The notes under the pieces were generated by a model. That model did no database searches. It saw nothing but the letters and a program-made list of their open reading frames with translations, and was not told the origin of the DNA. Both the position numbers and the translations under genes were made by a program. 21,273 nt of DNA, taken from positions 1-21,273 of IMG/VR virus record IMGVR_UViG_3300001848_000444, one strand, 5' to 3'. Every line of letters begins with the position of its first letter. Position 1 is the stretch's first letter. Positions 1 through 18,604 of this stretch are shown here, one piece after another. The stretch comes from a virus.

Positions 1-368
1 AAGTTCCTCCTCAGTCTATACTGGTCATGGCTGCGGAGAGAGATCTCTTCGCAGTATGTAACACCGTCGTAGGTGGTGCGCAGCACCACTGTGTCGGGGT
101 CCAGCATGCTCAGATCGCTGTCGTGGGCTTCGTTCCCGAAGTAATCGCGGCTGCGAACGAGCTTGTTCTCGACGACACTGACGCGCATCTCTCCGGTCGT
201 CTTGCCGGTCCACTTGATGACGTATTCGTTGTGATGGTCACCCCGGTCGACGTCTATCATGGTGGTTATGATGACGAACTTGCCGTCGGGCTTGAAAAGG
301 TAGGTGCGCTCAGAGCGCCACTGGCCGCAGGAGCGGTCAAACCATTGCAGTAGAGCTGGATCAGTCAT
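1..368 (-). CDS. CpcS/CpeS-like phycobiliprotein lyase (partial, 3' end off the window)
   Basis: Seen: an open frame from ATG at 368 to the left edge, 122 residues visible, no stop. The N-terminal part carries a GQWRSERTY motif (residues 15-23) behind a WFDRS stretch. Further on come a Trp in a beta-strand (W53), LVRSRDY (70-76), MLDPDTVVLRTTYDG (88-102), an EE pair (107-108) and DQYRLR (115-120). Known: CpcS/CpeS lyases are lipocalin-fold proteins that attach bilins to phycobiliproteins; they share a G-W-x-S-x-R N-terminal signature, an LLR..GY strand, a D-x-L-x-L-x-T-x-Y strand and a C-terminal E(E/R)...R-x-R strand, in this order. Inference: a phage-carried pigment-maturation gene, pointing to a cyanobacterial host. 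It overlaps the upstream 35-codon gene by 8 bp. The protein is shorter and more divergent than cyanobacterial lyases, so bilin activity is unproven; another lipocalin-like role is possible. Confidence 0.6.
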   Translation of the reverse strand, partial: MTDPALLQWFDRSCGQWRSERTYLFKPDGKFVIITTMIDVDRGDHHNEYVIKWTGKTTGEMRVSVVENKLVRSRDYFGNEAHDSDLSMLDPDTVVLRTTYDGVTYCEEISLRSHDQYRLRRN

Positions 369-468
369 GGTTGAATTGTTTTTCGAGGTTACTCCAAAGA
401 TGGGGCAAGGAGACGAGCAAACCCGCAAGGAGCAGGCTACCACCATAGAGCAGGATGTCGTGAAGCAT
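361..468 (-). CDS. Small single-span membrane protein
   Basis: This 35-residue frame starts at ATG 468, one base after the stop of the SH3-like gene, and its end overlaps the start of the phycobiliprotein-lyase-like gene by 8 bp. Residues 5-22 are strongly hydrophobic (LLYGGSLLLAGLLVSL) and would span the membrane once; the tail LEKQFNHD is polar. I do not recognise a family. Support is its tight packing in the operon and the membrane segment. It could be an accessory lysis or superinfection protein, but nothing in the sequence decides this. Confidence 0.5.
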   Translation of the reverse strand: MLHDILLYGGSLLLAGLLVSLPHLWSNLEKQFNHD

Positions 469-469
469 G

Positions 470-736
470 TCAGCTATCGGAGGTAAATACTTCGCCGGAC
501 ACCTTAATGGAGATGACACGGCGGGCGTCGAAGGAGCGCCAGGCACCAAGCTTGGCGTCAACGACACGGAAGATGTTAGGGTCAGAGGCGGGCTTGCCGG
601 TTCCCTTGATCTCCAGGAACTGGCGGGGGTTGATCGTCATCTGACGCTCGGAGCCGTCGGCCTTGATGAAGCGGACGGAGACGAAGTGGCTGCCGGCATC
701 GGTGATGGCCTGGCGGAGGGTTTCGTGATTGAACAT
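470..736 (-). CDS. SH3 beta-barrel-like small phage protein
   Basis: An 88-residue protein with ATG at 736 behind a good ribosome-binding site (CAGGAGAGAG). The pattern VSVRFIKADGSERQM (residues 19-33), then a loop, then an IFRVVDAKLGAWRSFDARRV strand pair (54-73), resembles the small phage proteins annotated as SH3 beta-barrel fold (DUF2693-like), which share an F-x-K-x-DG-x-x-R-x-M strand and a V-x-D...G-x-WR-S-F strand. The molecular role of that family is not established. It is preceded by a TATACT promoter-like motif at 761-768 and followed one base later by a small membrane protein. Confidence 0.55.
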   Translation of the reverse strand: MFNHETLRQAITDAGSHFVSVRFIKADGSERQMTINPRQFLEIKGTGKPASDPNIFRVVDAKLGAWRSFDARRVISIKVSGEVFTSDS

Positions 737-4157: not shown

Positions 4158-5696
4158 TCATTTCGCAACCTTGGCGGCTTGAGCCGTTTTCTGCTGCTCC
4201 GTTTTCGGTGGAGGGCCAGCAGGTGCCGAAGGCTGTTGCGGCATGGCCTCTGCAGCCTTCTGAGCGTCGGCCAGAGCGGCCTGCTTGTCCTCCTCGATTC
4301 TGGCCACCTCCTCCTCGATTACCATGTCCGGATCGAGTACGCCACCACGCTGCAGTTCGTCGAGGACGGTCTGCTTGGACAACAGGCCACTGGAATGCAG
4401 GTTGACGAGCTGAGCCATCTCCGAGGCGCCCAACGGCTTGTTGATCAGCGAGTCGTTGATTGCGATGCCCGACTCCTTGGTGATCTGGTCAACTTCGCCA
4501 GCATACCAGGCCCAGAGTTTCATGAGCATCGAGAACATGCTCGACTTGTTGCGGACCAGGGCGGCCACGCTAGAGGCCACCTGAGAAGCCCGGAGGGACG
4601 CCTCGGTGGCTGTCTTGATGTTCGCCCCGTACAAGAAGTTCAGGGAGCTACGGTCCATGAGCATCTCGACGTGCTCGATCTCGCTCTGGTGGCGCTCCAG
4701 ACTCTTGCCGCTCGGCTCAGCAAAGGAGAAACCGCTGCCGGCTTCGGCGGACAGGTCGACAGCAGTGTTCGGGCCCAGCACCAACGGCGCAGGTTGACCA
4801 TCAGGGCCGATAGGGGCGCCCTTGCGGACGGGCACTGGCATTGCGCACTTGTGCAGTAACTCGGCCAGGTCTGACCGCATCTGGAAATGCTGGATGCTCA
4901 GGTCGGCCAGGCCAGCAAGAGGCAGATCGCCCTGGGCGAAGCGGCTGGTCGTGGCGCCATACCATACCACGGGGATAACCGGAAGGGTGGTGTTGATCTC
5001 GTCAATCTTCTGGTTTGCCCAACGGCTCGTGGCCTCCTTAACCAGTCGATAGCTTTCAACCTTACCAGGAGTCAGCACGTAGTAGATCGGCTCAACGATC
5101 GAACCGAAGGCGTTTTCGGGATCCTGTATGCTACGCAGTTGTCGAATAGTTACCCGCTCAAGTACCTCACGACCCATGTCATAGCGCACGTTCCAGTTGA
5201 TGACGTCAGTGCGCTGGATGTTGATCAGGTACGGCTTGCGACCATCGTTCATCTGATCAAAGAAGTTGTTGGCGCCAGCCTCGGGCATCATGTCAACCAT
5301 GATGAACGTCCCGCCATCGCGTAGGGCGGTCTCATCACAGAGTGTCATAAAGCTCTGCATGCTGGAGCCCTGGAGGTCCACGTCTGACTGCGCCGCCATC
5401 ATGCTGGCAGGGGCATCAATCAGCTGGAAGCGGCTCAGCAGGCCCGCATAGGAGCGGATGGAGTCGCGGTAGATCGGGGCGTAGGTTGCACGGCCAAGGC
5501 GTGACAAGTAGGCCGCATGAGGCTCGGCAGGCTCCTTGGGCAAGTACTTCACCTTGGCCTCGCCTTGGCCGTCTCCGTTCAAGAGAGTCCAGCAATCGTC
5601 AGCTAACTCGAGTTGCGGGAGCAGTCGCACAAGCTCTGGGCGGTGATACGACACCAGAGAGGGGTCGTTGATCGGGTGAGAGATTCCTTGGGGCAT
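4158..5696 (-). CDS. Portal-like structural protein (DUF4055-like)
   Basis: A 512-residue protein. Near the N-terminus it has HPINDPSLVSYHRPEL, then KVKYLPKEP (48-56), AAYLSRLGRATYAPIYRDSI (61-80), and an acidic patch with RDGGTFIMVDMMP (around 126-138). The middle contains a long helical region (SLERHQSEIEHVEMLMDRSSLNFLY), and the tail is Ala/Pro/Gln-rich. Known: DUF4055 proteins of tailed phages share the N-terminal YLP and Y-x-x-Y..RA features and are regarded as portal proteins, the dodecameric ring through which DNA enters the head. Length suits a portal. I see no ribosome-binding site before ATG 5696; an inverted repeat lies in the leader. The gene stands about 10 kb from the terminases, which is unusual for a portal gene. 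Confidence 0.65.
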   Translation of the reverse strand: MPQGISHPINDPSLVSYHRPELVRLLPQLELADDCWTLLNGDGQGEAKVKYLPKEPAEPHAAYLSRLGRATYAPIYRDSIRSYAGLLSRFQLIDAPASMMAAQSDVDLQGSSMQSFMTLCDETALRDGGTFIMVDMMPEAGANNFFDQMNDGRKPYLINIQRTDVINWNVRYDMGREVLERVTIRQLRSIQDPENAFGSIVEPIYYVLTPGKVESYRLVKEATSRWANQKIDEINTTLPVIPVVWYGATTSRFAQGDLPLAGLADLSIQHFQMRSDLAELLHKCAMPVPVRKGAPIGPDGQPAPLVLGPNTAVDLSAEAGSGFSFAEPSGKSLERHQSEIEHVEMLMDRSSLNFLYGANIKTATEASLRASQVASSVAALVRNKSSMFSMLMKLWAWYAGEVDQITKESGIAINDSLINKPLGASEMAQLVNLHSSGLLSKQTVLDELQRGGVLDPDMVIEEEVARIEEDKQAALADAQKAAEAMPQQPSAPAGPPPKTEQQKTAQAAKVAK

Positions 5697-5777: not shown

Positions 5778-6272
5778 TCACCCCTTGCTGGGCACCACTC
5801 CCATGTCCCGGTTGTAGCGACCGGTTACGCCGTAGGGGCGGAGAGGGGTTTCGTCTACCCGAGAGAACCGAAGCTGGCCGATCCGCATTCCAGCCTCCAG
5901 CGGAAGCCAGTGGTAGCGATTCAGGTTGGTAAGCTCGAGTGTCACTTGCCCACTGAAGCCTGGATCAATGTACCCGGCCAGGGCATGCTCGTAGCCTTCG
6001 CGGCCTCGGCTGCTCTTCAGTTGAAAGATGCACTCTAGGTGGTCGGGAACATTGATGACCTCGGCGGTATGGGCCAGGATGAAGGCTCCGGGCATCATCT
6101 CAAACCCCGGGATCGAAATATCGACTTCCCTCCATCCCTCGCGCTCCTCGACAAGAATCTTGGGGCCGAGTGTTACATCGTAACTAGCCGGGTTGACCTG
6201 CTGGCGACGGAATGGCTGGATTAGGCCATGCTGGCCCAGGGCTTCGATCTGAAAGTCGACAATTGTGGCCAT
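5778..6272 (-). CDS. dcd: dCTP deaminase / dUTPase-superfamily protein
   Basis: A 164-residue protein with the trimeric dUTPase/dCTP deaminase fold signatures: NPASYDVTLG (27-36), QLKSSRGREG (84-93), AGYIDPGFSGQVTLELTN (99-116) and IGQLRFSRV (131-139). In dCTP deaminase the KSS..R serine and arginine and the Glu in TLEL (here E113) take part in deamination of dCTP to dUTP. Some relatives also cleave dUTP to dUMP; the sequence alone does not show which. The start overlaps the upstream stop as TAATG. Together with ThyX it would supply dTMP during infection. Best call is Dcd; a dUTPase-only role is less likely given the KSS motif and size. Confidence 0.85.
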   Translation of the reverse strand: MATIVDFQIEALGQHGLIQPFRRQQVNPASYDVTLGPKILVEEREGWREVDISIPGFEMMPGAFILAHTAEVINVPDHLECIFQLKSSRGREGYEHALAGYIDPGFSGQVTLELTNLNRYHWLPLEAGMRIGQLRFSRVDETPLRPYGVTGRYNRDMGVVPSKG

Positions 6273-6498: not shown

Positions 6499-9400
6499 TC
6501 AAGCCTTGCCTTCGCGTTCGTCGGCTTCAGCCTTGGCGATGCAGGCCGCGTTGGTGCATCCTGCAACACTCTCAATAGTCCACTCGCTACTGTCATACTT
6601 GTTCAGTATATCAAGCAGGGAGCGGTCATCAGTCATCTCGACAACCTTGCGGGGTAGGATTTGGCGATCATACTCCTCCCTGGAGATGGGTTCAAACGGC
6701 AAGCGAGGGAAGGTCTCGTTTGCATCAAACCGGGCCAACAGAGCGGCCGAGATGTAGCCACCATCGTTCACAATGTTGTCGTAGATCAGCTTGGAGAGCA
6801 CGGGGATCTCCTCTTCACGCAACTCGATGGTTGCGGAAGTGTTGTGGTCCGTGTAGAAGTTCTGCACATTCATATAGATCCCCCACTGGGCTGTGACGGG
6901 CAGCTTGCTCAGATCGTACTCATCGCAGCCAGGTAGGTCAGCCCAGGACACGGAGGTGGGAATCTCGACGAGTACTTCCTGAACGCGAGGATCAGTGATG
7001 TCGTCCAGCAGGTTGCCATGCTCATCGCGGGCAGACTGGGCAGGGATCACCTTGTAGCCGTACTCGATCAGAGCGGGCACCAGGGGGTCCTTAACGCCTA
7101 GGGTGATGCGACGGATGAAGCGCTGGGCCTTGGGCGGGTGCCAGCCACTGGAAGCGCCTGTGAGCAGGCTCTTGGTACCAGCGGGTTGAACGGTGGTGAT
7201 CCGGTTGGGCAGTCGGATGCCATGCTTTGTGCAGTAGTCGTCGACAGCGTCGTGGGCGGCCAAACGGAAGCGCATAAGGTACGACTGCTCGGCGCCCGTG
7301 TACTTATCGGCATAGCGATCGGACTCGGGACGACCCTCCATATTCCACTTCAGCCAGCCAGCCCCGAAGGCGTGGACATAGAAGTCGAACAGGCCAGTGA
7401 AGCTGACGCCAACAATCGGATCGATCTCACGGCTGTACTGATACCGCTCATGTACGAACTTGTGCTGCAGCAGGGAGGCCACCTGTAGGCCAGCGGCATA
7501 GAAGGCGTCGTACAGGCCCTGGAAGTCGTTGGGGTCCAGGGTGTTCAGATGCACCTCTGCCAGGTTGCAGTGGAAGTCGCGGCCGATAATCTCGCCACAG
7601 TTGGCGGAGAGGATGCCCGAGACGTAGCTCTTGCCAACAGAAGACGGATCCACCACCACGTAGTTGTGATGCTCATCGACTGTTCCGTTGTAAACGGTCG
7701 CCGTGCCCGCGTCTCGGATGGCCACAACCTTGTGATTCGCAATGTGCTCGGCGGCAGCGGGGCCGGGAGACCCGTGGTAGAAACCGTTGCGGCAACGGTT
7801 ACCGTAGTGCTCCCGATTGTGCTCAACGTGGGTAGTCGCCTCCAGATTCTGGGGCAGGTTGTTCACCGGGTTCCCATCAACGTGGTGGATAACCTCTCCA
7901 GAAATACCATAGTAATCGGCAATCACCCGATGGCAGAACTGCTGGCGGACAGAATCAGCTTGCTTGTTGTTGCGAGTGATTCGCAAGTGACCATCACGAT
8001 GCTGGTGGATAGCAAAGGCTGAGACGGACTGTCCAACCTTGAGGTCCTTGGCTTGGACCTTGTTGCGCTGCAGGGTGAAGAAGTTGTGGTTATGCGTGGC
8101 TCGCACCTTCAGGCCACTGTCAAACTCGACCTCCAGCACTGGCTGATTATAGCCAGTTACGCGGGGGCTGCGCATCATCCGCACGGCAGCCTCGTTCGTC
8201 TCCTTGTTGACACACCAGACGAGCACGTCCTCTCCACTCTCGACCAGCTCCTCAAAGGTTTTGACACCTTGGTGAACGGTCAGGATTGGCGTGTCCCCAG
8301 TCAGGCAGGGGTTGAGGCCGTAGCGATCCATACGGTGCCGCAGTTCGCGCTTGCTCAGCTTAATACCGAGCTCACGGGCTTCTTTCTCAAGCTGATCCCT
8401 GGCAGCTTTGCGGCCGAATGTCTCATAGGCAACCAGGAAGCGATCACGGCCGGCCCATGTGAGCACGTCAGCGTTCGCACGGGCAATCGCCTCAGGGACG
8501 TACTGGATGGCGCCCTCACCGCTCTGGAATTGCATCCGCACTGCCTCCTCAACCTCCTTGTAGGAAGGCTTGGTATGGTAGCAGCGGGTGTGGTTGGCCA
8601 TGCGCAGGGCTTCCTTGGCCGGGTCAACACGCCAGTTGCCTTCTTCGTCCTGTGAGTACAGGCCAAGCTTGGCAGTGGCGGCCTCCTGGTCGGTCTTGCT
8701 GAACTGACGCATGCCGGCGCTGCGGCGGATGTTGCCGGCCACGATACAGGCTGCGGCCTCGTCGATGAGTAGGCAGGCTTCGACTGTGGTCAGCTTGCGG
8801 CCCTGGGCCTTCGAGAGCAGGGCTGCCACCTTCTTGAACATGTCGCCAAGCTTGATCGGGTTGGCGGTGCCGCCAAAGCCCTTCAGACGCTCGCCGGCAG
8901 GGCGAACCTGGTCAAGAATGACGTGTACCTTAACGAGGCCACTACCAGGAAGGGTTGCAACCTCGATCAGCTTCATGTAGGCATCGACCCAGCCTTGGCG
9001 AGAGTCGCCAACCTGGATGAACAGCTCGGCGTCGGCCCAGTAAAAAGTAGTATTAGCTCGACCCGGTTTTTTGCCAATACCTGAGACGCCAACGACTTCA
9101 ATCTTGTTGAGGACCGGAGGCAGAACGGCTACAACATCGCTCTCAAGCACCGCTCCGGTACCAGAGCCTTGCATAGCCAGGTCGACCAGCAGACCAAAGG
9201 CTTCGATGTCGGAGATGTGGGTTGATGTGCAGTTGTAATACCCGGAGAAGTTCTCAGGCTTCTTACCCCATTCGGTTCCGGCTACCCAGAAGGCGCGTCC
9301 AGAAGGGAAGGAATGCTGAGCCAGGGCTTGCTGGAGAACCAGGTCGTACTCGTCCCGGTCAAGCTTGCCGATGCGAGCGATGTCGCCAATAGTGCGAAGC

Positions 9401-9504
9401 ATCGCCTCTTCGAAGTTCTCCCGAGAACCGTCGGCCTTTCTCCGGCTGTACGTGCGAAGGAATACGGCTTCGGCGGAAGGGGCTGATGGACGGAATTCGG
9501 TCAT
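6499..9504 (-). CDS. nrdJ: Class II (B12-dependent) ribonucleoside-triphosphate reductase, intein-containing
   Basis: A 1001-residue precursor; without the intein (400-635) the enzyme is 765 residues, close to the monomeric Lactobacillus leichmannii RTPR. It reduces ribonucleotides to deoxynucleotides with an adenosylcobalamin-generated thiyl radical, without needing a small subunit. Seen: GYYNCTSTH (C92, expected first redox cysteine), NP (398-399) joined after splicing to CGEI (636-639) to give the NPCGE radical-site loop, FHCNLAE (C646, likely second redox cysteine), QPAGTKSLLTGASSG loop, and a C-terminal GCTNAAC with C983 and C988 in the C-x4-C spacing of RTPR shuttle cysteines. A monomeric RTPR-like enzyme also occurs in cyanobacteria and cyanophages. 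The gene stands alone between two terminators, behind a TGGTAGACT motif at 9547-9556; no good ribosome-binding site is seen. Confidence 0.93.
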   Translation of the reverse strand: MTEFRPSAPSAEAVFLRTYSRRKADGSRENFEEAMLRTIGDIARIGKLDRDEYDLVLQQALAQHSFPSGRAFWVAGTEWGKKPENFSGYYNCTSTHISDIEAFGLLVDLAMQGSGTGAVLESDVVAVLPPVLNKIEVVGVSGIGKKPGRANTTFYWADAELFIQVGDSRQGWVDAYMKLIEVATLPGSGLVKVHVILDQVRPAGERLKGFGGTANPIKLGDMFKKVAALLSKAQGRKLTTVEACLLIDEAAACIVAGNIRRSAGMRQFSKTDQEAATAKLGLYSQDEEGNWRVDPAKEALRMANHTRCYHTKPSYKEVEEAVRMQFQSGEGAIQYVPEAIARANADVLTWAGRDRFLVAYETFGRKAARDQLEKEARELGIKLSKRELRHRMDRYGLNPCLTGDTPILTVHQGVKTFEELVESGEDVLVWCVNKETNEAAVRMMRSPRVTGYNQPVLEVEFDSGLKVRATHNHNFFTLQRNKVQAKDLKVGQSVSAFAIHQHRDGHLRITRNNKQADSVRQQFCHRVIADYYGISGEVIHHVDGNPVNNLPQNLEATTHVEHNREHYGNRCRNGFYHGSPGPAAAEHIANHKVVAIRDAGTATVYNGTVDEHHNYVVVDPSSVGKSYVSGILSANCGEIIGRDFHCNLAEVHLNTLDPNDFQGLYDAFYAAGLQVASLLQHKFVHERYQYSREIDPIVGVSFTGLFDFYVHAFGAGWLKWNMEGRPESDRYADKYTGAEQSYLMRFRLAAHDAVDDYCTKHGIRLPNRITTVQPAGTKSLLTGASSGWHPPKAQRFIRRITLGVKDPLVPALIEYGYKVIPAQSARDEHGNLLDDITDPRVQEVLVEIPTSVSWADLPGCDEYDLSKLPVTAQWGIYMNVQNFYTDHNTSATIELREEEIPVLSKLIYDNIVNDGGYISAALLARFDANETFPRLPFEPISREEYDRQILPRKVVEMTDDRSLLDILNKYDSSEWTIESVAGCTNAACIAKAEADEREGKA
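7600..8307 (-). mobile_element. HNH-containing intein inserted before the NrdJ radical-site cysteine
   Basis: Residues 400-635 of the nrdJ product (236 aa). Block A is CLTGDTPILTV (400-410), block B has THNH (470-473), and the C-terminal end is SGILSAN (629-635) followed by the +1 Cys of the host protein. Between them lies an HNH nuclease core: HHVDGNPVNNLPQNLE (540-555) and further HVEHNREH (559-566). Protein splicing removes the intein and joins NP to CGE, restoring the catalytic cysteine loop. The penultimate intein residue is Ala rather than the usual His, a known but less common variant. The HNH core appears intact, so homing is plausible. Confidence 0.92.
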
Positions 9505-10876: not shown

Positions 10877-11038
10877 CTACCAGCTCGGGTCGTGGTAGCA
10901 GCGGACGATTTCAACGTCCTGGGGTAGCAGTTCACAGGCAACCATAGTTGCGTCGCAGGCTGAGGCAGCTTTAAGGTAGAATTCGCGGCGGATGCCATTG
11001 CGATCCTGGTAGATAACGGTGAAATCCTTGATAATCAC
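10877..11038 (-). CDS. Small protein of unknown function (53 aa)
   Basis: Start chosen at GTG 11038: it follows an excellent ribosome-binding site (AAAGGAGG, seven bases away) and overlaps the lysozyme stop as GTGA. The protein begins with strands (IIKDFTVIYQDRNGIRREFY), then a helix (AASACDATMVACELL) and a final strand (VEIVRCYHDPSW). This strand-helix-strand plan resembles the 55-aa protein at 1053-1220. No family is recognised. Confidence 0.6.
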   Translation of the reverse strand: MIIKDFTVIYQDRNGIRREFYLKAASACDATMVACELLPQDVEIVRCYHDPSW

Positions 11039-11637
11039 AGGGATGCCTCCTTTGGACTCCCCAAGTATAGATCCCTGGCCCGCTGGAGTGCAAGCCTTAC
11101 TTCTTGTTTCGTAACATGAGCGCGGTTCGAGCCGCCGTAGTAACTGCTGGAGCCGTAGTAGGGGATCGAGGCCCACTCGAGCGCCATCTCCTTCATGGCC
11201 AGCTCGATGTCATGGCTTTGTCCCCTGATGAAAGCGCCGATGTCTGGGCGTTTGTGGTCTATCAGGGTCTGGAGCAGTTTGTCTTGAACGGCGGGAGTGA
11301 AGTGATCTTCCTCGGACACGCCTGACATCTTGATGGCGTAGTCAAGGGTTGATGGAATCATTTGATAGCGGCCCACTGCGAATACAGTGGTACGCTGTAA
11401 CTGCTGGACCTCTCGCACCGTCATTTCGGACAGGCTTCGACCGGTAATCGATCGGATGCCCCCAGGGGTGTCCCCGGCTGATCCGCGATTAACTGAGTCC
11501 CAGCTGCCTTCTCCTTTGGAGATAAGGCTTGATACTACTGCCAGTGGCGTTCTATCGACGACGCCTTTGACGACGCAAGCAACCGGCTGGCTACCTATCA
11601 GGAAAAGAGCTGGAACAAGTGAGGCATAAAGTCGCAT
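11035..11637 (-). CDS. Phage lysozyme / muramidase-like endolysin with N-terminal signal segment
   Basis: Start chosen at ATG 11637: it gives a 200-residue protein with an N-terminal hydrophobic segment (MRLYASLVPALFLIGSQPVA) and lies after a terminator-like stem; the ATG at 11757 would start inside the glutaredoxin gene. The catalytic domain has SKGEGSWDSVNRG (residues 40-52; E43 is the likely acid), GDTPGG, ITGRSLSEMT, VFAVGRYQMIP (85-95) and FTPAVQDKL, a pattern shared with phage and cyanobacterial lysozyme-like muramidases. It would cut glycan strands. The segment ends in PVAC, close to but not a good lipobox, so a signal-anchor or secreted endolysin is more likely. It works with the M23 peptidase downstream. 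Confidence 0.78.
   Translation of the reverse strand: MRLYASLVPALFLIGSQPVACVVKGVVDRTPLAVVSSLISKGEGSWDSVNRGSAGDTPGGIRSITGRSLSEMTVREVQQLQRTTVFAVGRYQMIPSTLDYAIKMSGVSEEDHFTPAVQDKLLQTLIDHKRPDIGAFIRGQSHDIELAMKEMALEWASIPYYGSSSYYGGSNRAHVTKQEVRLALQRARDLYLGSPKEASL
11063..11070 (-). promoter_or_regulatory. Promoter-like motif with conserved leader (CTATACTT)
   Basis: Within the last codons of the lysozyme gene the minus strand reads CTATACTTGGGGAG, then TCCAAAGGAGGCATCCCT and GTG 11038. The layout is like that before ATG 1030 and ATG 4094. Being inside a coding region, it may serve mainly as a translation leader. Confidence 0.3.
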
Positions 11638-11679
11638 TGGTTGTCTCGATAACCGACAGCCATATTGGTTGCAGGCGCA

Positions 11680-11700
11680 AAAGCCCAGGTTGATCCTGGG
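11680..11700 (-). terminator. Probable weak terminator before the lysozyme
   Basis: On the minus strand CCCAGG-ATCAA-CCTGGG (11700-11684) followed by CTTTTGC. Six-bp stem with a four-T run, located in the 107-bp gap between glutaredoxin and the chosen lysozyme start. Confidence 0.5.
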
Positions 11701-11743
11701 CGGCGACTGACCAATGGCGGCCTCGGGTGGATTGATGGTAGCG

Positions 11744-11935
11744 CTAAGATCGAACATGGTTCGAAAGCTCAGTGAAGCCGCCTATGGGCTTCCCGTCAAT
11801 GATAATATAAGGTGCCGTCGGGTGATCTGGGTGTTTTCCTTGAATTTCTTCATATTCGACACCCATGAGATCCAGCAGCGTTTTGGCCTTAACGCACCAG
11901 GGACAGTTGGGGATGGTGTGGATGATGGTTTTCAT
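11744..11935 (-). CDS. Small glutaredoxin
   Basis: Start chosen at ATG 11935, overlapping the phosphoesterase stop as TGATG; a longer start at 12070 would lie inside that gene. The 63-residue protein has the glutaredoxin active site CPWC (C11-C14), a TAPYIIIDGKPIGG segment (40-53) with the cis-proline position and the GG motif, but is shorter than cellular glutaredoxins because it lacks the last helices. It passes electrons by thiol-disulfide exchange; a natural partner is the phage NrdJ with its C-terminal cysteine pair, though this pairing is inferred. Confidence 0.88.
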   Translation of the reverse strand: MKTIIHTIPNCPWCVKAKTLLDLMGVEYEEIQGKHPDHPTAPYIIIDGKPIGGFTELSNHVRS

Positions 11936-13206
11936 CAGATGACTACTTTCACGATGGTTTGGGGTTCGTAGAGGGCCTCGTGGGCCTTCTCGGCGCTTCG
12001 GGCATTGTAGGCCTCGAGCTGTTGGATCACCTCGTAGCCTTCGACGCATTCCACATTCTGTAGGTCGCACTTGACGCCGTCAAGTCCCTGCCGGGTCACC
12101 AGGTGGATGTTCTGGGCCGCCTTGGACACAAAGCCCAGGGCTTCTTCTGAGTAGGCATTGGAACCCACCAGAGAGGCGTTGCGGGACACGTAGTCAGACA
12201 CGACTGTGGCGTGGATGTGGCCGCACAGGATGTGGGTGATGTTGACGCCCTTGGCCGCGTACTTGCCGATCAGGGCCTGGCACTTCTTCTGGTCGGTGGC
12301 ATTGACCTGATGGCCATGCACGCCCAGGAAGGTCTCATTGTGCAGCCGGAACACAGTCTCGTTCGCGGCGAAGTCGTGGAACCGCATGCCCTTGTCTTCT
12401 ACGGCCTCGAAGATCACCTGCAGCATGCTGTAGATGGTAAAGTCGTAGGAGTCGGTTGCGACGACGTCAACCCAGCCCAAGTCATCCTTGGCGCGTGACT
12501 CGTTGCCGGCGACGCCGAAGCAGTCGACAAAGAAGTCCTCACGGAGATCCTGGAGGAACTGCTTGTACAAGTGGACTGCCAGTAGGGTGGCCTTAGCACG
12601 GTTGGTGCTCATGGCCAGCAGCTCGTCCAGGCGGCGATCGCTGTTCATCAGGTCGCCCCCAAAGAACACCACAACACGCTCGACACCATAGGCCTTGCCG
12701 AACAGTTTGGCCTTCTGAGCTAGCAGTTGCAGGCGCTTCGCGGCGACCTGGAAGTCGAAGCGATTGGTCGGCAGGTTGACCAGCTCATTGAAGTGGTTGT
12801 CCGACAGGTGGATAACCATCGCGGCAGCCTCCGGGTCAAGGGGGCCTGACCGGCGGGAGCAGCCCTCCATAGAGGCCCCTACCACCTCCAGCTCGGCGAG
12901 CAGGGCCTCGTTGTAGGCGGCTACGGCGTTCTCGATCCGGGCGTGCTCCCGGAAGGACTTGTTCTTGATGCGGGCTTCGTCGGCCTGCTTTTGGACCAAC
13001 TTGGCAAGCCGTACGCCCTCAGACACCGTTTCGATGTCAATAGGCGATGCCGTCAGCTCGGTTTTGACGTATCCACGAAGCTGATTAGGCCTTGCGAGGC
13101 CCCGATGTCGGGAGTAAAGAGCCTCTGCGACGCCAAGGTACGAACCGATCTCCTCGTAGAGATCACGCACTTCGTCACGCAGATGGCTGATTGGGGTCAG
13201 GCTCAT
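11935..13206 (-). CDS. Calcineurin-like metallophosphoesterase
   Basis: A 423-residue protein. Metal-binding motifs in order: SDNH (D136, H138), GGDLMNSD (D185), GNES (234-237) in place of the common GNHE/D, VHGH (H297, H299), and CGHIH (H330, H332). These define the metallophosphoesterase fold, with two metal ions cleaving phosphomonoesters or phosphodiesters. The first 110 residues are helical (DEVRDLYEEIGSYLGVAEAL, VSEGVRLAKLVQKQADE) and may bind nucleic acid as a helix-turn-helix. The absence of His in GNES removes a usual catalytic or metal ligand, so activity may be altered. The start overlaps the primase by 32 bp; a GTG at 13170 would avoid the overlap. Place next to primase suggests a DNA-related nuclease role, not proven. 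Confidence 0.82.
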   Translation of the reverse strand: MSLTPISHLRDEVRDLYEEIGSYLGVAEALYSRHRGLARPNQLRGYVKTELTASPIDIETVSEGVRLAKLVQKQADEARIKNKSFREHARIENAVAAYNEALLAELEVVGASMEGCSRRSGPLDPEAAAMVIHLSDNHFNELVNLPTNRFDFQVAAKRLQLLAQKAKLFGKAYGVERVVVFFGGDLMNSDRRLDELLAMSTNRAKATLLAVHLYKQFLQDLREDFFVDCFGVAGNESRAKDDLGWVDVVATDSYDFTIYSMLQVIFEAVEDKGMRFHDFAANETVFRLHNETFLGVHGHQVNATDQKKCQALIGKYAAKGVNITHILCGHIHATVVSDYVSRNASLVGSNAYSEEALGFVSKAAQNIHLVTRQGLDGVKCDLQNVECVEGYEVIQQLEAYNARSAEKAHEALYEPQTIVKVVI

Positions 13207-14779
13207 CGTTGGCCGAAAACAGCACTTCGTCTTCCAGTATAACGGCCAGGTGGTCGATCACTTCTTGGTCTTCATTAACGATAACATTTGGCTGTATCAG
13301 CGTCCGCAGCTGCTCCATGTAGTGCGGCTCTGCCACTACGACAACAGCCATGACGCTGTGAGGAGTGAGATCTCGTGGGCAGTACTCCTGCAGCTCCTTC
13401 AGGCGAGCCGTCAGCCAGCGCAGGGCCGGATGCTGGACTAGTTCCATCAGTGGCAGAAGATTTGCGCGTAACTCGGGGCGATGCACAAACAGGCGGAGCA
13501 GGCGCCGCTCAGCCGCTATACGTGTGGCTGAAGGGGCCCTAGGAATCCACTCCGATTCGGAGGCAAAGAACTCGCCATTGCCCCAGTCCTTGGCTAACTT
13601 CTCGGCCTCTTTCTCACTGGAGGTCAGGACCCGGGCTGCCTTGTCGACGTAATGGGTGCGCAGGGCCTTCGAGCGCAGGCTGTCGATGAGCGTCCGCAAC
13701 TTCTGCTCAACGTCCGTAACCATGGCCGTATCAGTCTTGTCAAGAGCGGCAGCCCAGGTGTCGATCACCCAGTCAAGCCAGCTCTCGGCGTTTGCCAGGT
13801 ATGAATACAGGTCACCACCACCACGGATTACCTCGTCGGGATCCGAGCCTTCTGGCAGGATCGCAACGCTGAGATTGAGCTGTCCCTGCAGGGCCATGGG
13901 GCCAGCTGCTTTGATGAACTGCTCTGTCGCCTTCCTTCCGCCAGCATCGCCGTCGTAACATAATATAATAGTTTTTATGTTACGGGTCAATCTCTGTAGT
14001 ACCAAGGGGTCTGGAGCCCCGGTACCCTGCATGGCTACGACGTTTCGGATGCCAGCCTGCCACATGCTGACGACATCGAGATGGCCTTCCACGAAGATGA
14101 TCGAGCCAGCTTCACGGGCGGCCTCCTTGGCGCGAACCTCGTTGAAGACCAGCGACTTCTTGTCGAAGAGGTCGTTCGACTCAGTGTTCTTGTATTTGGC
14201 GGGCTGGCCCTCCCGGGTGGCACGGCCAGTCCAGCCAACCAGCTCACTGCGGTGGTTGTAAATGGGCAAGGTGATCCGGCCCTCAAAGAAGCCCTTCGAA
14301 GAGAAGCCGATACCGAACTCTCTGGCCGCCTCAGCGGTGATTCCACGGGCCTGCAGCAGGCCTCTGATCCTGCTAGCCTGTGGTGCTCTCAGGTTTGCTT
14401 TGAAAGCGTCTTGCTCGGTCTGCAGGGCTGCAATGGCTACCTTGCGCTGTTCATTGCGGAAGGCCCGTTCCTCTGCGTTCTCATCATCAGTCTCAAAGCC
14501 AACGCCGAGGAGTTGGGCTGCGGTCTCTGCCGCTTCTCGCCAAGAGAGTCCATGACGCCGGACAACATAGTCAATAGCGTCGCCACCACCACGACAGACA
14601 TGGCAGAAGCAAAAGCCCTTGTCATCGTTAACCGTAAGTGAGGGGTTGGTGTCGTCATGCCAAAGGCACTGAGTAAGGAACTCGTGGCCAACTCGCTTGA
14701 GCTGGGCGCCGGTTGCCTCAATCAGTGCCGAAAGGGGTGCGGCCTTGATTGCCGCGATGGTTTTTGGGGTGACTGCCAT
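13175..14779 (-). CDS. DnaG-type DNA primase
   Basis: A 534-residue protein. The N-terminal zinc finger has C38, H41, C59 and C62 (CLWH then CHVC), the CHC2 pattern of bacterial primases. The central part has the DnaG catalytic core, with GITAEAAREFGIGF and RITLPIYN, then the TOPRIM motifs FVEGHLDVV (around 228-236) and ILCYDGDAGGRKA (around 270-282), which bind the catalytic metals. The C-terminal part is helical and could contact a helicase. Primase makes RNA primers for phage DNA replication. No helicase or DNA polymerase lies in this window. The start is 6 bases after a TAGACT motif with no ribosome-binding site, so the transcript could be leaderless if that motif is a promoter. Confidence 0.93.
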   Translation of the reverse strand: MAVTPKTIAAIKAAPLSALIEATGAQLKRVGHEFLTQCLWHDDTNPSLTVNDDKGFCFCHVCRGGGDAIDYVVRRHGLSWREAAETAAQLLGVGFETDDENAEERAFRNEQRKVAIAALQTEQDAFKANLRAPQASRIRGLLQARGITAEAAREFGIGFSSKGFFEGRITLPIYNHRSELVGWTGRATREGQPAKYKNTESNDLFDKKSLVFNEVRAKEAAREAGSIIFVEGHLDVVSMWQAGIRNVVAMQGTGAPDPLVLQRLTRNIKTIILCYDGDAGGRKATEQFIKAAGPMALQGQLNLSVAILPEGSDPDEVIRGGGDLYSYLANAESWLDWVIDTWAAALDKTDTAMVTDVEQKLRTLIDSLRSKALRTHYVDKAARVLTSSEKEAEKLAKDWGNGEFFASESEWIPRAPSATRIAAERRLLRLFVHRPELRANLLPLMELVQHPALRWLTARLKELQEYCPRDLTPHSVMAVVVVAEPHYMEQLRTLIQPNVIVNEDQEVIDHLAVILEDEVLFSANDEPDPNQPSA

Positions 14780-14795: not shown

Positions 14796-15530
14796 CTAGA
14801 ACAGGCTGCCCTGGAATCGATCGTCACCCAAGTCCTCCCAACCGTCAAGTAAATTAACATCCATCTGGCTCCAGTCGGTAGCCGCACACCCAGCAGCCGC
14901 AAGTAGAGCATCGACAGCTGCTCGTGGGACACGGGTGCCGGTGCCGTTGAGGTATACCTCGATCTGCGAGAGACTGCTCTGGTGCTCTTGGTCGAGTTGC
15001 TCAATAGAGCGACTGGCCTGCTCGATATACATGGTGGCGAAGTCCACCTCTGAGGGCTCCAGGGGCTCCGTAGGGGTGGCTTGGTCCTTGAGCTCAAGCG
15101 GTGGGCCCGAGCAGACCTTGCGGACCTCCTGCCAGTCCTCCAGATCGATACCCAGCTCCCGGGCTACCTGGATGTCGGTGGCGCCACGGTACAGCATCTT
15201 ACGGCCCTTCAACCAGCGCTCGCGCATCTTGTGGCTCAGGCGCATAGCATAGGTTCTATCGCGAACCCAATGTAGCAACTCGCCACGGATTGTCGGCACG
15301 GCAAGACTGGAGAACTTCATGCTCTTGCCAGTGGTCGGGTGAGGCTTGTCCGCGTCGTATCGGAAGGCTGCCTTGCAGAGCCCCTCGAAGGCTACAGACT
15401 CCAGGGTCTGGTAATCGATACCTGTCGACCGCTGAATGCGCCAGGCCTCGCGACGAGCTAGGTTCAGATTGCTAGCCGCAAGCTGCTGTTGCTCTTTGCT
15501 GAGCTGGAATTTCTGCGGCTTGCGTGCCAT
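14796..15530 (-). CDS. Sigma-70 family RNA polymerase sigma factor, lacking a recognisable region 4
   Basis: A 244-residue protein. Residues 20-95 match sigma region 2: LARREAWRIQ, a helix YQTLESVAFEGLCKAAFRYDADK (40-62), then MKFSSLAVPTIRGELLHWVRDR (71-92), close to the FSS(F/Y)AVP.IRGE...(Y/F)LRD signature of group 3 sigma factors in cyanobacteria and other bacteria. Residues 95-140 (RLSHKMRERW, DIQVARELGIDLEDWQEV) fit region 3. The last 100 residues show no region 4 helix-turn-helix signature and are acidic. It likely recruits host RNA polymerase to phage promoters or modifies it. It lies between terminase and primase genes. A TGGTAGACTG motif precedes it. Alternative: an anti-sigma-like decoy derived from a sigma factor. 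Confidence 0.82.
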   Translation of the reverse strand: MARKPQKFQLSKEQQQLAASNLNLARREAWRIQRSTGIDYQTLESVAFEGLCKAAFRYDADKPHPTTGKSMKFSSLAVPTIRGELLHWVRDRTYAMRLSHKMRERWLKGRKMLYRGATDIQVARELGIDLEDWQEVRKVCSGPPLELKDQATPTEPLEPSEVDFATMYIEQASRSIEQLDQEHQSSLSQIEVYLNGTGTRVPRAAVDALLAAAGCAATDWSQMDVNLLDGWEDLGDDRFQGSLF

Positions 15531-15536
15531 GCCTGG

Positions 15537-15730
15537 CTTAGTAACTGAAATCAGTCTACCAGGTCGAATAGTGACCCCCAGGTTTGAGCATCGTCGAGAG
15601 GCTTAGGGGGTGTTTCGGGGAGACGTTACGGACGCCTCCAGAGCCGTGCCTTCGCGCTTGCCAAGTGGGTCCCCGGCGCATGAGCGGCAAACTCAGCCCG
15701 ATGCCGAAGCAGAGCGGGAACGATAGTAGT
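15537..15730 (-). other. Spacer between large terminase and sigma-like gene
   Basis: This 200-bp stretch has no convincing gene. A frame of up to 66 codons (15556-15756; inner ATG at 15681 gives 41 codons, MRRGPTWQARRHG) is Pro/Arg/Ser-rich, lacks a ribosome-binding site and is probably chance. ACCCCC and GGGGGT on either side of a 26-base loop (about 15577-15615) can form a 6-bp stem without a T run. TAGACT motifs flank both ends. Confidence 0.4.
15552..15561 (-). promoter_or_regulatory. Extended -10-like motif before the sigma-like gene (TGGTAGACTG)
   Basis: On the minus strand CCTGGTAGACTGATTTC lies 22 bases before ATG 15530. It is identical over ten bases to the motifs before primase and nrdJ. 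A near copy, TGGTAGACTA, overlaps the large-terminase stop codon at 15727-15736. A phage sigma factor preceded by the common motif could be self-regulating. Confidence 0.45.
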
Positions 15731-17248
15731 CTACCAGGCGCGATACTGAGGGACATCAGGTAGGGCCCTGTCGCCTCGGCCCCAGGTAACCGTCGTTAGT
15801 TGCGGAGCCGACCGCTGGGTCATGTAGTTGATGGCCATGGTGAGACCATCGACCATGTCGTCGTTCTTCGACGCGGGAAACAGGGAGAACTCGTTCAGGA
15901 ACGCATCGAGCCAGTGTGCGCTTGCCGGCAGGAACACGTTGCCAGCCTCGACGATCGGGACAATACCACTGGCTCGGGCCTCCTTGGATTTGTCCGGTTT
16001 GAAGCCGATTAGGCCTGGAACCTTTTGATGCATCATCTGGTAAACGGCATGACCAGACGCCGCAAGTTCGATGACGGTGCCGCTTAGAGCGTGCCTTTGA
16101 TACATACGGTTGATCATCGCCATCGTACCGACCACGTCGAGCTTTTCCCTAACGAGGTCGAGAACGTAGAACCGATTGCCCGCCTGCCCAACCACAATCC
16201 CAACGACATAGTCACTCTTGCTGGTAGCGGTGAAGGTAGCGTCAACCGCAAGCATGACACGCTGGAAGTCCGGAATAACGCTGTCGTGACCGTAATACTG
16301 CCACCAATCAGGACTAAACATGTTGCCGCCCTCAGGGGCCGGTCTCTGCTGGTAGAGAGAGGCGAAATCGCGCGAGCCGACGGCTTCTCTGATCCTTTCG
16401 AGGTCGTCCACATCGTAACGCTGGGGACAAAGCGCTGTACCCACTTCGGTGCGCCAGTCAGGGATAATTTCACAATGCGGTGGCAGGAGGGGGCGGTCAC
16501 CTTCGTCTTCATAGAGAGCAGGCAGGTCAACAATAGTCCAATTCTCGCGTCCCTTCTCGGAAACATTCATCTCGTTCTCGAGCAGTTGACCGATCATGTC
16601 ATTCTCTGACCACCGGGTCTGAATCACAACAATGGCCCCGACATGGGGCTCAAGACGGGTGTAGAGGGTAGAGGTGTACCAGTCGTTCAACTTGTCCATC
16701 ATCCTACCGCTCTCTGCGTCCTCCCGGTTCTTGACGGGGTCGTCGATGATCAGCAAGTGGCCAGATCGACCAGTGATAGCACCGCCAACACCAGCAGCCC
16801 AAAGGCCACCACCACCCTCGGTGCCCCAGGCATTAACTGCCTGAGAGCTAGCATTCAGAAGTCCGCCGCCCTCACGGTAGAAGTCGCGGGCCTTTCTTGA
16901 GAAGCCTTCTGCCAGTTCTGCGCTATATGAACTGATGCCAACATGACGGTCGGGGTGAGCAAGCAGATAGGCAGCAGGCAGAAGTTGAGAAGCCAGGAGG
17001 CTCTTTCCGTGCCTCGGCGGCACCTGAAGTATGAGTCGATTGCAGTCTCCGTCGATGACGCGCTGAAGCTGCTCGATGACTGTTGCATGGAACTTGAACA
17101 TCTTGTAGTTGGGATAGACCTGCTTGATGAACCTCCAAAGCACGATCTGCTTCGAAGTGCGCTCAGCCTTCTTCGCCTTGACGGCGCGAATCAGGTCCTG
17201 GCCAGACGCAGCCTTGGCCAGATAGTCCTTGCCTAGTTTCTGAGCCAT
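15731..17248 (-). CDS. terL: Terminase large subunit (packaging ATPase-nuclease)
   Basis: Start chosen at ATG 17248, four bases after the terS stop; an in-frame ATG at 17284 lies inside terS. The 505-residue protein has a Walker A motif QVPPRHGKS (75-83), Walker B LLIIDDP (165-171), a coupling motif VVIQTRW (207-213), the SLYQQRPAP segment (297-305) typical of this TerL group, and a C-terminal RNase H-like nuclease with AVDAT (D336) and NDDMVDG as metal ligands. It drives DNA into the prohead through the portal and cuts concatemers. It pairs with the small subunit directly upstream. Complete in length and motifs. Confidence 0.96.
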   Translation of the reverse strand: MAQKLGKDYLAKAASGQDLIRAVKAKKAERTSKQIVLWRFIKQVYPNYKMFKFHATVIEQLQRVIDGDCNRLILQVPPRHGKSLLASQLLPAAYLLAHPDRHVGISSYSAELAEGFSRKARDFYREGGGLLNASSQAVNAWGTEGGGGLWAAGVGGAITGRSGHLLIIDDPVKNREDAESGRMMDKLNDWYTSTLYTRLEPHVGAIVVIQTRWSENDMIGQLLENEMNVSEKGRENWTIVDLPALYEDEGDRPLLPPHCEIIPDWRTEVGTALCPQRYDVDDLERIREAVGSRDFASLYQQRPAPEGGNMFSPDWWQYYGHDSVIPDFQRVMLAVDATFTATSKSDYVVGIVVGQAGNRFYVLDLVREKLDVVGTMAMINRMYQRHALSGTVIELAASGHAVYQMMHQKVPGLIGFKPDKSKEARASGIVPIVEAGNVFLPASAHWLDAFLNEFSLFPASKNDDMVDGLTMAINYMTQRSAPQLTTVTWGRGDRALPDVPQYRAW

Positions 17249-17252
17249 TGGG

Positions 17253-17879
17253 TCACTCGTCCAGCGGGATGTCGTACACGTCATCGGTAACGTCCTCGAC
17301 GTTCACCTGTTCGAGCTCCTGGTCCACCACGGCCATCAGCTCATTGACGCCAAGAGAGGTTGCCCAAGCCTGGCGGCCCTGCTCGGAGATGTTTGCAGCT
17401 GCACGCATCAGGCCAGACACGAGTGCCATCGGGATCTCTTCGCCCTCGGCATCTGCCCGCTCTATTCGCCTCTGGATAACCGCCATTAGGTCATTGCTAA
17501 CCGCCACGAACTTCTCAGCCTGCTCCTGTTGGCTCTTGCGGAACTTTTCAATGCTTTGGCGGTGACGGGTCCGCTCCATCTTGTTGGCGCTCTCGAAGGC
17601 CCTGGTGAGCTGCTTCTGGTCCCACTTCGCGGCACGACGCTGCCATTCCCAGCGACTTGCCCATTCCATGATGGTATTCTCCCCCATCTCGCAGATCTCC
17701 GCCACTGCAGCATAAGACCTCCCAGACCCCAAATTCATGTAGGTCTGGAAGGCCCTGAATTGCTTGTCGTTCTCGTGACGTCCTGCGTCGCTAACCCGGT
17801 ACCCTCTGCGGAAGTTGTAGATGGGCCCCGGGTTGTATGGGGGCTGAGCCTCTTTCCAGGAACTCGGGTCCGACGACAT
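17253..17879 (-). CDS. terS: Terminase small subunit
   Basis: A 208-residue protein directly upstream of terL. It has a helix-turn-helix (SYAAVAEICEMGENTIMEWA, residues 55-74) followed by RWEWQRRAAKWD (76-87), a pattern common in phage small terminase subunits, then a long helical oligomerisation region (FRKSQQEQAEKFVAVSNDLM, IQRRIERADAEGEE) and an acidic tail. It recognises the packaging site and regulates TerL. A GTGGAGTG sequence about 10 bases before ATG 17879 is a fair ribosome-binding site. Confidence 0.85.
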   Translation of the reverse strand: MSSDPSSWKEAQPPYNPGPIYNFRRGYRVSDAGRHENDKQFRAFQTYMNLGSGRSYAAVAEICEMGENTIMEWASRWEWQRRAAKWDQKQLTRAFESANKMERTRHRQSIEKFRKSQQEQAEKFVAVSNDLMAVIQRRIERADAEGEEIPMALVSGLMRAAANISEQGRQAWATSLGVNELMAVVDQELEQVNVEDVTDDVYDIPLDE

Positions 17880-17917: not shown

Positions 17918-18604
17918 CTAGAAAGTCCAGTTCAGCTCGTCCAGGGCTTCTGCTACTGACGGGAAGTACTCTCTGAAGATACCGATCGCCTTCAGTGCCA
18001 CGTCCTGATGCTCTTCCTGGGTGCCGTTGGCAGACCGGAGGCATAGGTAGTGGATCCAGGAGCGGCAGTTGCCAGTCACGTAGAGGGTCGTCTCGGCGGC
18101 CTGGGGCAGGATGGCCCTTGCACACTCCTTGGCGATGCCGTGCTGAAGCATGGCCGTGTATAGGTCTTCGGCCTGGCGGAAGTGTTCGTCCAGCTTGGCC
18201 TGGAACCAGAGTTGAGTCTCCCCTGGAAGCTCGTCTATGCTCTTCTGGCGGTTCTTGGGGTGTGGTGCCCGCAGGTGTGGCAAATGGATCACCAGGGGCG
18301 CCTCGGCCTCTCCTGCGTAGCGCCTGGACAACTGCTGGAAGCAGAAGCTGCGGTGCCGCAATATCTGAGTGGCGATGTCCAGCGTCGTGGTGACCTGGAG
18401 GGTCATGTGGGCATGCTCGAAGACGCTCCAGTGGCCGTGCTTGATGCAGTACTTCAGGAGGCCGGAGACCTTCGGGTTGTCCTGGTTCTTGGGGTTGCTG
18501 ACCCGGGCCACATGGCCCATGAAAAATTCGGCGTCTGGAGTTACGAACTCAAGCTCCACACGGGGGAACTCAAGCTTGGTCGTGTCGCGGTTAGCGATTG
18601 TCAT
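17918..18604 (-). CDS. thyX: FAD-dependent thymidylate synthase
   Basis: A 228-residue protein with the ThyX signature RHRSFCFQQLS (R83-H84-R85, S93; RHR-x7-S), and also HWSVFEHAHMTL (58-69) and an NCRSWIHYLCLRS segment near residue 178, which forms the FAD and dUMP site in the tetramer. ThyX methylates dUMP to dTMP using methylene-tetrahydrofolate and FAD/NADPH. Full length for the family. Start overlaps the preceding stop as TGATG. It joins dcd and nrdJ in thymidylate supply. ThyX is common in phages of hosts that use it, cyanobacteria among them. Confidence 0.96.
   Translation of the reverse strand: MTIANRDTTKLEFPRVELEFVTPDAEFFMGHVARVSNPKNQDNPKVSGLLKYCIKHGHWSVFEHAHMTLQVTTTLDIATQILRHRSFCFQQLSRRYAGEAEAPLVIHLPHLRAPHPKNRQKSIDELPGETQLWFQAKLDEHFRQAEDLYTAMLQHGIAKECARAILPQAAETTLYVTGNCRSWIHYLCLRSANGTQEEHQDVALKAIGIFREYFPSVAEALDELNWTF

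Follow-up and report, generated by a model that had tools for sequence, protein, structure and literature searches.

According to a passage of a 2023 paper (PMC10665884), cyanophages of clusters A and B carry T-type lyase genes (cpeT/cpcT) for host biliproteins, and a further lyase gene, cpcV, occurs in S-CBWM1 and four marine strains of cluster C. In the same passage the carriers of cpcV are myoviruses, and the phage cpcV genes and a putative Synechococcus SYN20 prophage make up one clade, apart from host cpcV. The phage label cpcV is used here as it stands in that paper and in deposited annotation. Deposited annotation names an S-type lyase or CpcV in phages S-CRES1, S-CRES2, S-CRES3, S-CREM2 and S-CBWM1 and a hypothetical protein in S-B68. 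Phage S-type lyases are thus already annotated and published, and the copy described below adds one divergent member. Because of this record, the gene is less new than an earlier note on this DNA had supposed, even if its description as a divergent phage copy stands.

The DNA analysed here (the window) is IMG/VR virus record IMGVR_UViG_3300001848_000444, positions 1 to 21,273. A CpeS-family (S-type phycobiliprotein lyase-like) gene occupies window positions 1-368 on the minus strand; it begins with an ATG at 368-366 and is truncated at base 1, after 122 codons. The full 148-aa gene lies at 5004-5450 of a 42.6-kb contig, IMGVR_UViG_3300001847_000341 (L003), whose position 5004 corresponds to window 368 and which is identical to the window across the 5370 bases compared. 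The 26 C-terminal residues absent from the window are encoded at 5372-5450 of that contig. All the ordered CpcS/CpeS signatures named in the earlier note are present in the translation (GQWRSERTY, LVRSRDY, DPDTVVLRTTY, EE and YRLR), and the assignment to the CpeS lyases that was built on them is now supported by profile comparison and by a predicted lipocalin-like barrel (see below). Against the Pfam CpeS profile (PF09367, cut-off 23.3 bits), the window fragment scores 35.7 bits (E 9.7e-9) and the complete protein 36.9 bits (E 4.1e-9). A family scan of the window's own record returned two pieces, both within the lyase frame. Profile searching of the PDB retrieved 4tq2 (E 3.7e-5) and 3bdr (E 0.033); a single-sequence search of PDB sequences with the lyase protein gave no match, and a PHROGs search with the partial protein gave no family. 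NCBIfam returned no family for any of nine S-type proteins, host ones among them, and is therefore uninformative. The rate of nonsynonymous change (dN) is lower than the synonymous rate (dS) in all seven phage lyase pairs computed, two of them with saturated dS (the window lyase and L010 give dN 0.32 and dS 0.99), which indicates that the gene is being maintained. Judged by its sequence, the window gene is a genuine, maintained and divergent phage S-type lyase-like gene.

A T-type (CpcT/CpeT) identity was also considered and rejected. The Pfam scan at E up to 0.01 gave CpeS as the sole family, with no match to CpeT; the T-type phage lyases belong to a different family.

A tblastn search of 50,697 phage records with window 3-371 (the gene fragment and one extra upstream codon) found the lyase gene in 15 records representing 12 differently named phages, all of them Synechococcus phages, at 34-49% identity. 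Closest are the lyases of S-CRES1, S-CRES2 and S-CRES3, with 48-49% identity across 99% of the query. These are documented by deposited annotation only (a literature search found no paper on the three phages), and the window copy departs from six positions on which the other aligned phage proteins agree. S-CREM2 and its relatives follow at 37-38% and S-CBWM1 at 34%, so that the CpeS-family genes of the T4-like cluster C "cpcV" phages (S-CREM2, S-B68, S-N03 and S-H34) and of S-CBWM1 are 34-38% identical to the window's. In IMG/VR, 16 lyase loci were found on viral contigs, one of which belongs to the window's own phage (L009 and L003 are one contig). In some related phages a Glutamine-II riboswitch lies 5' of the lyase gene (L004 5614-5675, L005 2914-2966, L012 381-435 and L013 1745-1800), and in L004, L005 and L013 its position is between the portal and lyase genes; none was detected in the window at threshold.

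That the carrier is a phage, as first proposed, is confirmed by window genes for a portal, a primase, a phage sigma factor and both terminase subunits and by a gene order known from Synechococcus phages. On the minus strand, the window encodes the thymidylate synthase ThyX (17918-18604; Pfam Thy1, 151.4 bits), the terminase small subunit (17253-17879; PHROG 6299, 164.1 bits) and large subunit (15731-17284; PHROG 38, 360.4 bits), a phage sigma factor found at the same place in S-CRES1 and S-CRES3 (14796-15530; PHROG 36098, 335.7 bits), a DNA primase (13175-14779; PHROG 6444, 437.5 bits), an exonuclease/phosphoesterase (11935-13206; PHROG 284, 184 bits), a lysozyme/endolysin-like protein (11035-11757; 99.2 bits to PHROG 37890, of unknown function, and 50.8 bits to the endolysin family PHROG 90), a class II ribonucleotide reductase that carries an intein-like insertion (6499-9504; Pfam RNR-II_ins_dom, 36.4 bits), a dCTP deaminase-like protein (5778-6272; Pfam DCD, 92.5 bits) and the portal protein (4158-5696; PHROG 145, 309.7 bits). 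RusA and a glutaredoxin are encoded as well. The order thyX, terS, terL, sigma factor, primase, phosphoesterase, thioredoxin/glutaredoxin, lysozyme, ribonucleotide reductase, nucleotide enzyme and portal, followed by the lyase, is common to the window, S-CRES1 and S-CRES3. The ribonucleotide reductase frame (1001 aa) exceeds its S-CRES1 counterpart by about 230 aa and contains matches to Intein_splicing (52.9 bits) and to an HNH_3 endonuclease (25.7 bits). A small protein encoded at window 470-736 (minus strand) gives a sub-threshold match to WYL_2 (22.0 bits, cut-off 26.7).

The large terminase subunit is 88.5% identical to that of S-CBS2, 84.1% to that of S-CRES3 and 81.4% to those of S-CRES1 and S-CRES2; among the 2389 records matched by tblastn, only S-CBS2 (two records) and S-CRES1-3 exceed 80%. 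Over the matched part of the portal, identity is 87% with S-CBS2 and 76% with S-CRES1, and the window's succession of dCTP deaminase and portal recurs in S-CBS2. These comparisons group the carrier with S-CBS2 and S-CRES1-3, which are estuarine Synechococcus phages, unlike the myoviruses that carry the published cpcV genes (see above). The terminase identity and the shared gene order make a Synechococcus-type picocyanobacterium the very probable host. The tblastn search of phage records gave no lyase match in S-CBS2, so that the gene is dispensable, or optional, in this group of phages.

The interval between terL and the sigma factor gene contains, at window 15574-15610 on the minus strand, a full match to the Rfam abiF RNA (RF03085, 53.5 bits, gathering threshold 37). 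The corresponding gap in S-CRES1 and S-CRES3 measures 24-25 bases, and no abiF match was found in the stretches of these two phages that were scanned. No Abi_2 protein (PF07751) was found in the window, the 42.6-kb contig or seven related records, the environmental ones being fragments. According to a passage of PMC12373285, abiF motifs make up the RNA antitoxin to AbiF in C. difficile; by analogy, a lone copy could act as an anti-AbiF decoy. An abiF RNA in a cyanophage, S-CREM1, is already in print (PMC9964418). The abiF core pattern occurs in at least 119 viral stretches (80 are listed, L194-L273). Among the matches listed, 19 of 20 loci scanned passed the Rfam threshold (L207 fell below it), and 47 of 48 abiF-pattern records picked from them, mostly longer contigs and possibly fragments, lack Abi_2 (PF07751).

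AlphaFold2, run on 14 phage rows, predicts the ten-strand lipocalin-like barrel that the lyase assignment had called for, with an N-terminal helix (residues 4-12) preceding the strands (mean pLDDT 91.9, pTM 0.84). Among solved structures, Foldseek puts 4tq2 first (E 2.7e-7), which is CPES, an S-type lyase from Guillardia theta. VIA-align, used to re-examine the Foldseek matches, places 3bdr (Ycf58 of Thermosynechococcus; Z 16.9, rmsd 1.8 over 129 residues, 22% identity) ahead of 4tq2 (Z 16.1, rmsd 2.8 over 135 residues, 22% identity), with a spirocyclase third (Z 14.3). We take Ycf58 to be a member of the S-type lyase family. The same barrel is thus seen in CPES and Ycf58 and predicted here, in a protein that is shorter (148 aa, against 177 modelled residues in 4tq2 and 156 in 3bdr) and that, by alignment, lacks about 20 residues found in CpcS, CpeS and CpeU between its second and third strands. 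In the structural list, high ranks also go to spirocyclases, nitrobindins and fatty-acid-binding proteins, and likeness to a barrel would not by itself show function.

An alignment of 60 rows was assembled from 16 phage proteins, 31 proteins of a cyanobacterial paralogue group designated X (20 picoX, from picocyanobacteria, and 11 cyanoX, from elsewhere) and 13 CpcS/CpeS/CpeU/CpcU-like proteins. Twelve positions reach at least 85% conservation in each of the four groups (G15, W17, S19, R21, W53, R72, Y100, E107, R118, R120, E139 and R141), and the window protein keeps every one of them, including GxWxSxR, the Trp, Arg, Tyr and Glu positions, RxR and ExR. It also keeps T98, where picoX proteins have Ser. 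E107 and R118 presumably correspond to Glu-136 and Arg-146, which are catalytic in CPES of G. theta. The window copy alone deviates at T22, C106, S110, R121, N122 and S136, on which the other 15 of the 16 phage rows agree.

In the tree of these 60 rows, phage, picoX and cyanoX sequences group together and are split from the 13 CpcS/CpeS/CpeU/CpcU-like rows at 100/100. When six rows of another paralogue, Y, were included with eight picoX and eight cyanoX rows, phage and X sequences still grouped at 100/99; paralogue Y joined the CpeS rows at 92/99, the older lyases then no longer forming one side of a branch, and picoX nested inside the phage rows at 95/80. A single phage clade is not the best tree and is not rejected (p-AU 0.337); with picoX and the CpcU-like row left out, a branch separates the 16 phage rows from all others (SH-aLRT 99). 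Each of the three trees had long branches flagged, and the terminal branch of the window lyase is itself long (0.78 in the 60-row tree). The trees omit L003 (= L009), L015-L017 (near-copies of L014), L023 (the S-CBWM1 genome), L024 (a fragment), the records of S-CRES2, S-N03, S-H34 and other phages, and some of the host loci. We assigned the labels CpcS, CpeS and CpeU ourselves, CpcS through the split gene of strain WH5701 and the others by resemblance. A passage of PMC2246261 describes WH5701 cpcS as split over two frames, and Table 3 of that paper lists cpcS as the family's sole member in this strain. WH5701 was found here to carry an X gene as well. The phage lyases branch with a separate cyanobacterial paralogue, outside CpcS, CpeS and CpeU.

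Group X (L105-L191), defined as one paralogue of strong, full-length matches, is a widespread S-type paralogue in cyanobacteria; three members (L107, L110 and L131) lack a Pfam CpeS match or fall under its cut-off. A first search of genome contigs with the phage profile gave no relative, and the matches came from later scans: a relative was found in 147 of 201 genomes of WH5701's family at E up to 0.01 and, with the limit set at E 0.001, in 100 out of a phylum-wide sample of 292 genomes, counts that include weak matches to other S-type paralogues. No demonstrated activity was found in the literature for group X. Fourteen X-bearing picocyanobacterial genomes were picked by hand (12 small, 2 large). 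Bilin reductases are present in all 14, and six have no phycobilisome-linker match and a single phycobiliprotein match of 96-108 bits. These six, read as Prochlorococcus-like from their size (1.6-1.7 Mb) and base composition, have 32-33% G+C in the four with loci measured. X lies near a bilin reductase in none of the 14. It is within 3 kb of one in two of ten cyanoX genomes, and in one of these two the X gene has two bilin reductases in a row just downstream on the same strand. No neighbourhood naming a function emerged from the four picocyanobacterial and six cyanoX loci scanned, although L116 and L137 have a phosphoribosyl-pyrophosphate synthetase and a histidine kinase in common; the surroundings of the remaining loci vary, save for the bilin reductases close to two cyanoX genes. 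Given the reductases in all 14 genomes, their proximity in two of the ten cyanoX genomes and the lack of linkers in six, X may be tied to bilins and is not clearly tied to phycobilisome assembly.

The most likely reading, which we favour with some reserve, is that the phage protein binds a bilin in its barrel and transfers it to a host biliprotein. We infer that host-made bilin would be taken up by the barrel, where the conserved Trp, Arg and Glu positions would hold it, and passed to a cysteine of the biliprotein; the benefit to the phage would be a phycobiliprotein kept pigmented as the host's own supply declines during infection, and host light harvesting might be affected in this way. Lyase activity is probable, and the gene is probably of host origin. 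Synthesis of the bilin by the phage was rejected: heme oxygenase was found in none of three phage records and bilin reductase in none of 12 (the environmental records being fragments), which points to the host as the source. Counting against lyase function are the nearest host relatives, which form a paralogue separate from the characterised CpcS, CpeS and CpeU, as well as the missing match in S-CBS2, the six deviating positions and the absence of X from the vicinity of bilin reductase in all 14 picocyanobacterial genomes.

The main rival, itself rather unlikely, is that a protein derived from the group X paralogue binds bilin without attaching it, as a chaperone, carrier or helper in biliprotein turnover; the phage would then recover or buffer bilins freed as the antenna is dismantled. 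The position of the phage proteins in the tree argues for such a role, and a review deems a part in turnover conceivable for one homologue. It would also fit the retention of X in the six linker-less genomes, which possess bilin reductases; these genomes come, however, from a hand-picked set, and the biliprotein that persists in them is a possible lyase substrate. Against a carrier, the phage proteins retain the positions common to characterised lyases, and an S-type lyase is among the top two fold matches. A broader version, which we consider doubtful, is that all cyanophage S-type proteins descend from a little-studied paralogue that is a bilin carrier or recycler, through which phages would handle the bilins that the antenna releases in the course of infection; it draws on the tree, on the retention of X without linkers and on the failure to find bilin-synthesis genes in the phages. 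Improbable is the reuse of the barrel to bind a different ligand or a host protein. The fold class is a general one in which spirocyclases, nitrobindins and fatty-acid-binding proteins score well, and the window copy departs from the phage consensus at six positions, but 3bdr and 4tq2 lead the structural comparison, and the protein clears the CpeS cut-off and keeps the shared Trp, Arg and Glu positions. That the gene is a decaying, functionless relic of a captured host gene, as the long end branch and the S-CBS2 result might hint, is very improbable in view of its open frame, preserved core positions, dN below dS and presence across several phage groups.

With transfer of bilin to a host biliprotein as the preferred reading, these results place the phage S-type lyases beside an unstudied cyanobacterial paralogue. 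They raise a testable question, namely whether these phage genes serve to attach pigment, as their annotation has it, or perform a different task involving bilins, and they bear on how phages would touch light harvesting when no bilin-synthesis gene is found beside the lyase.
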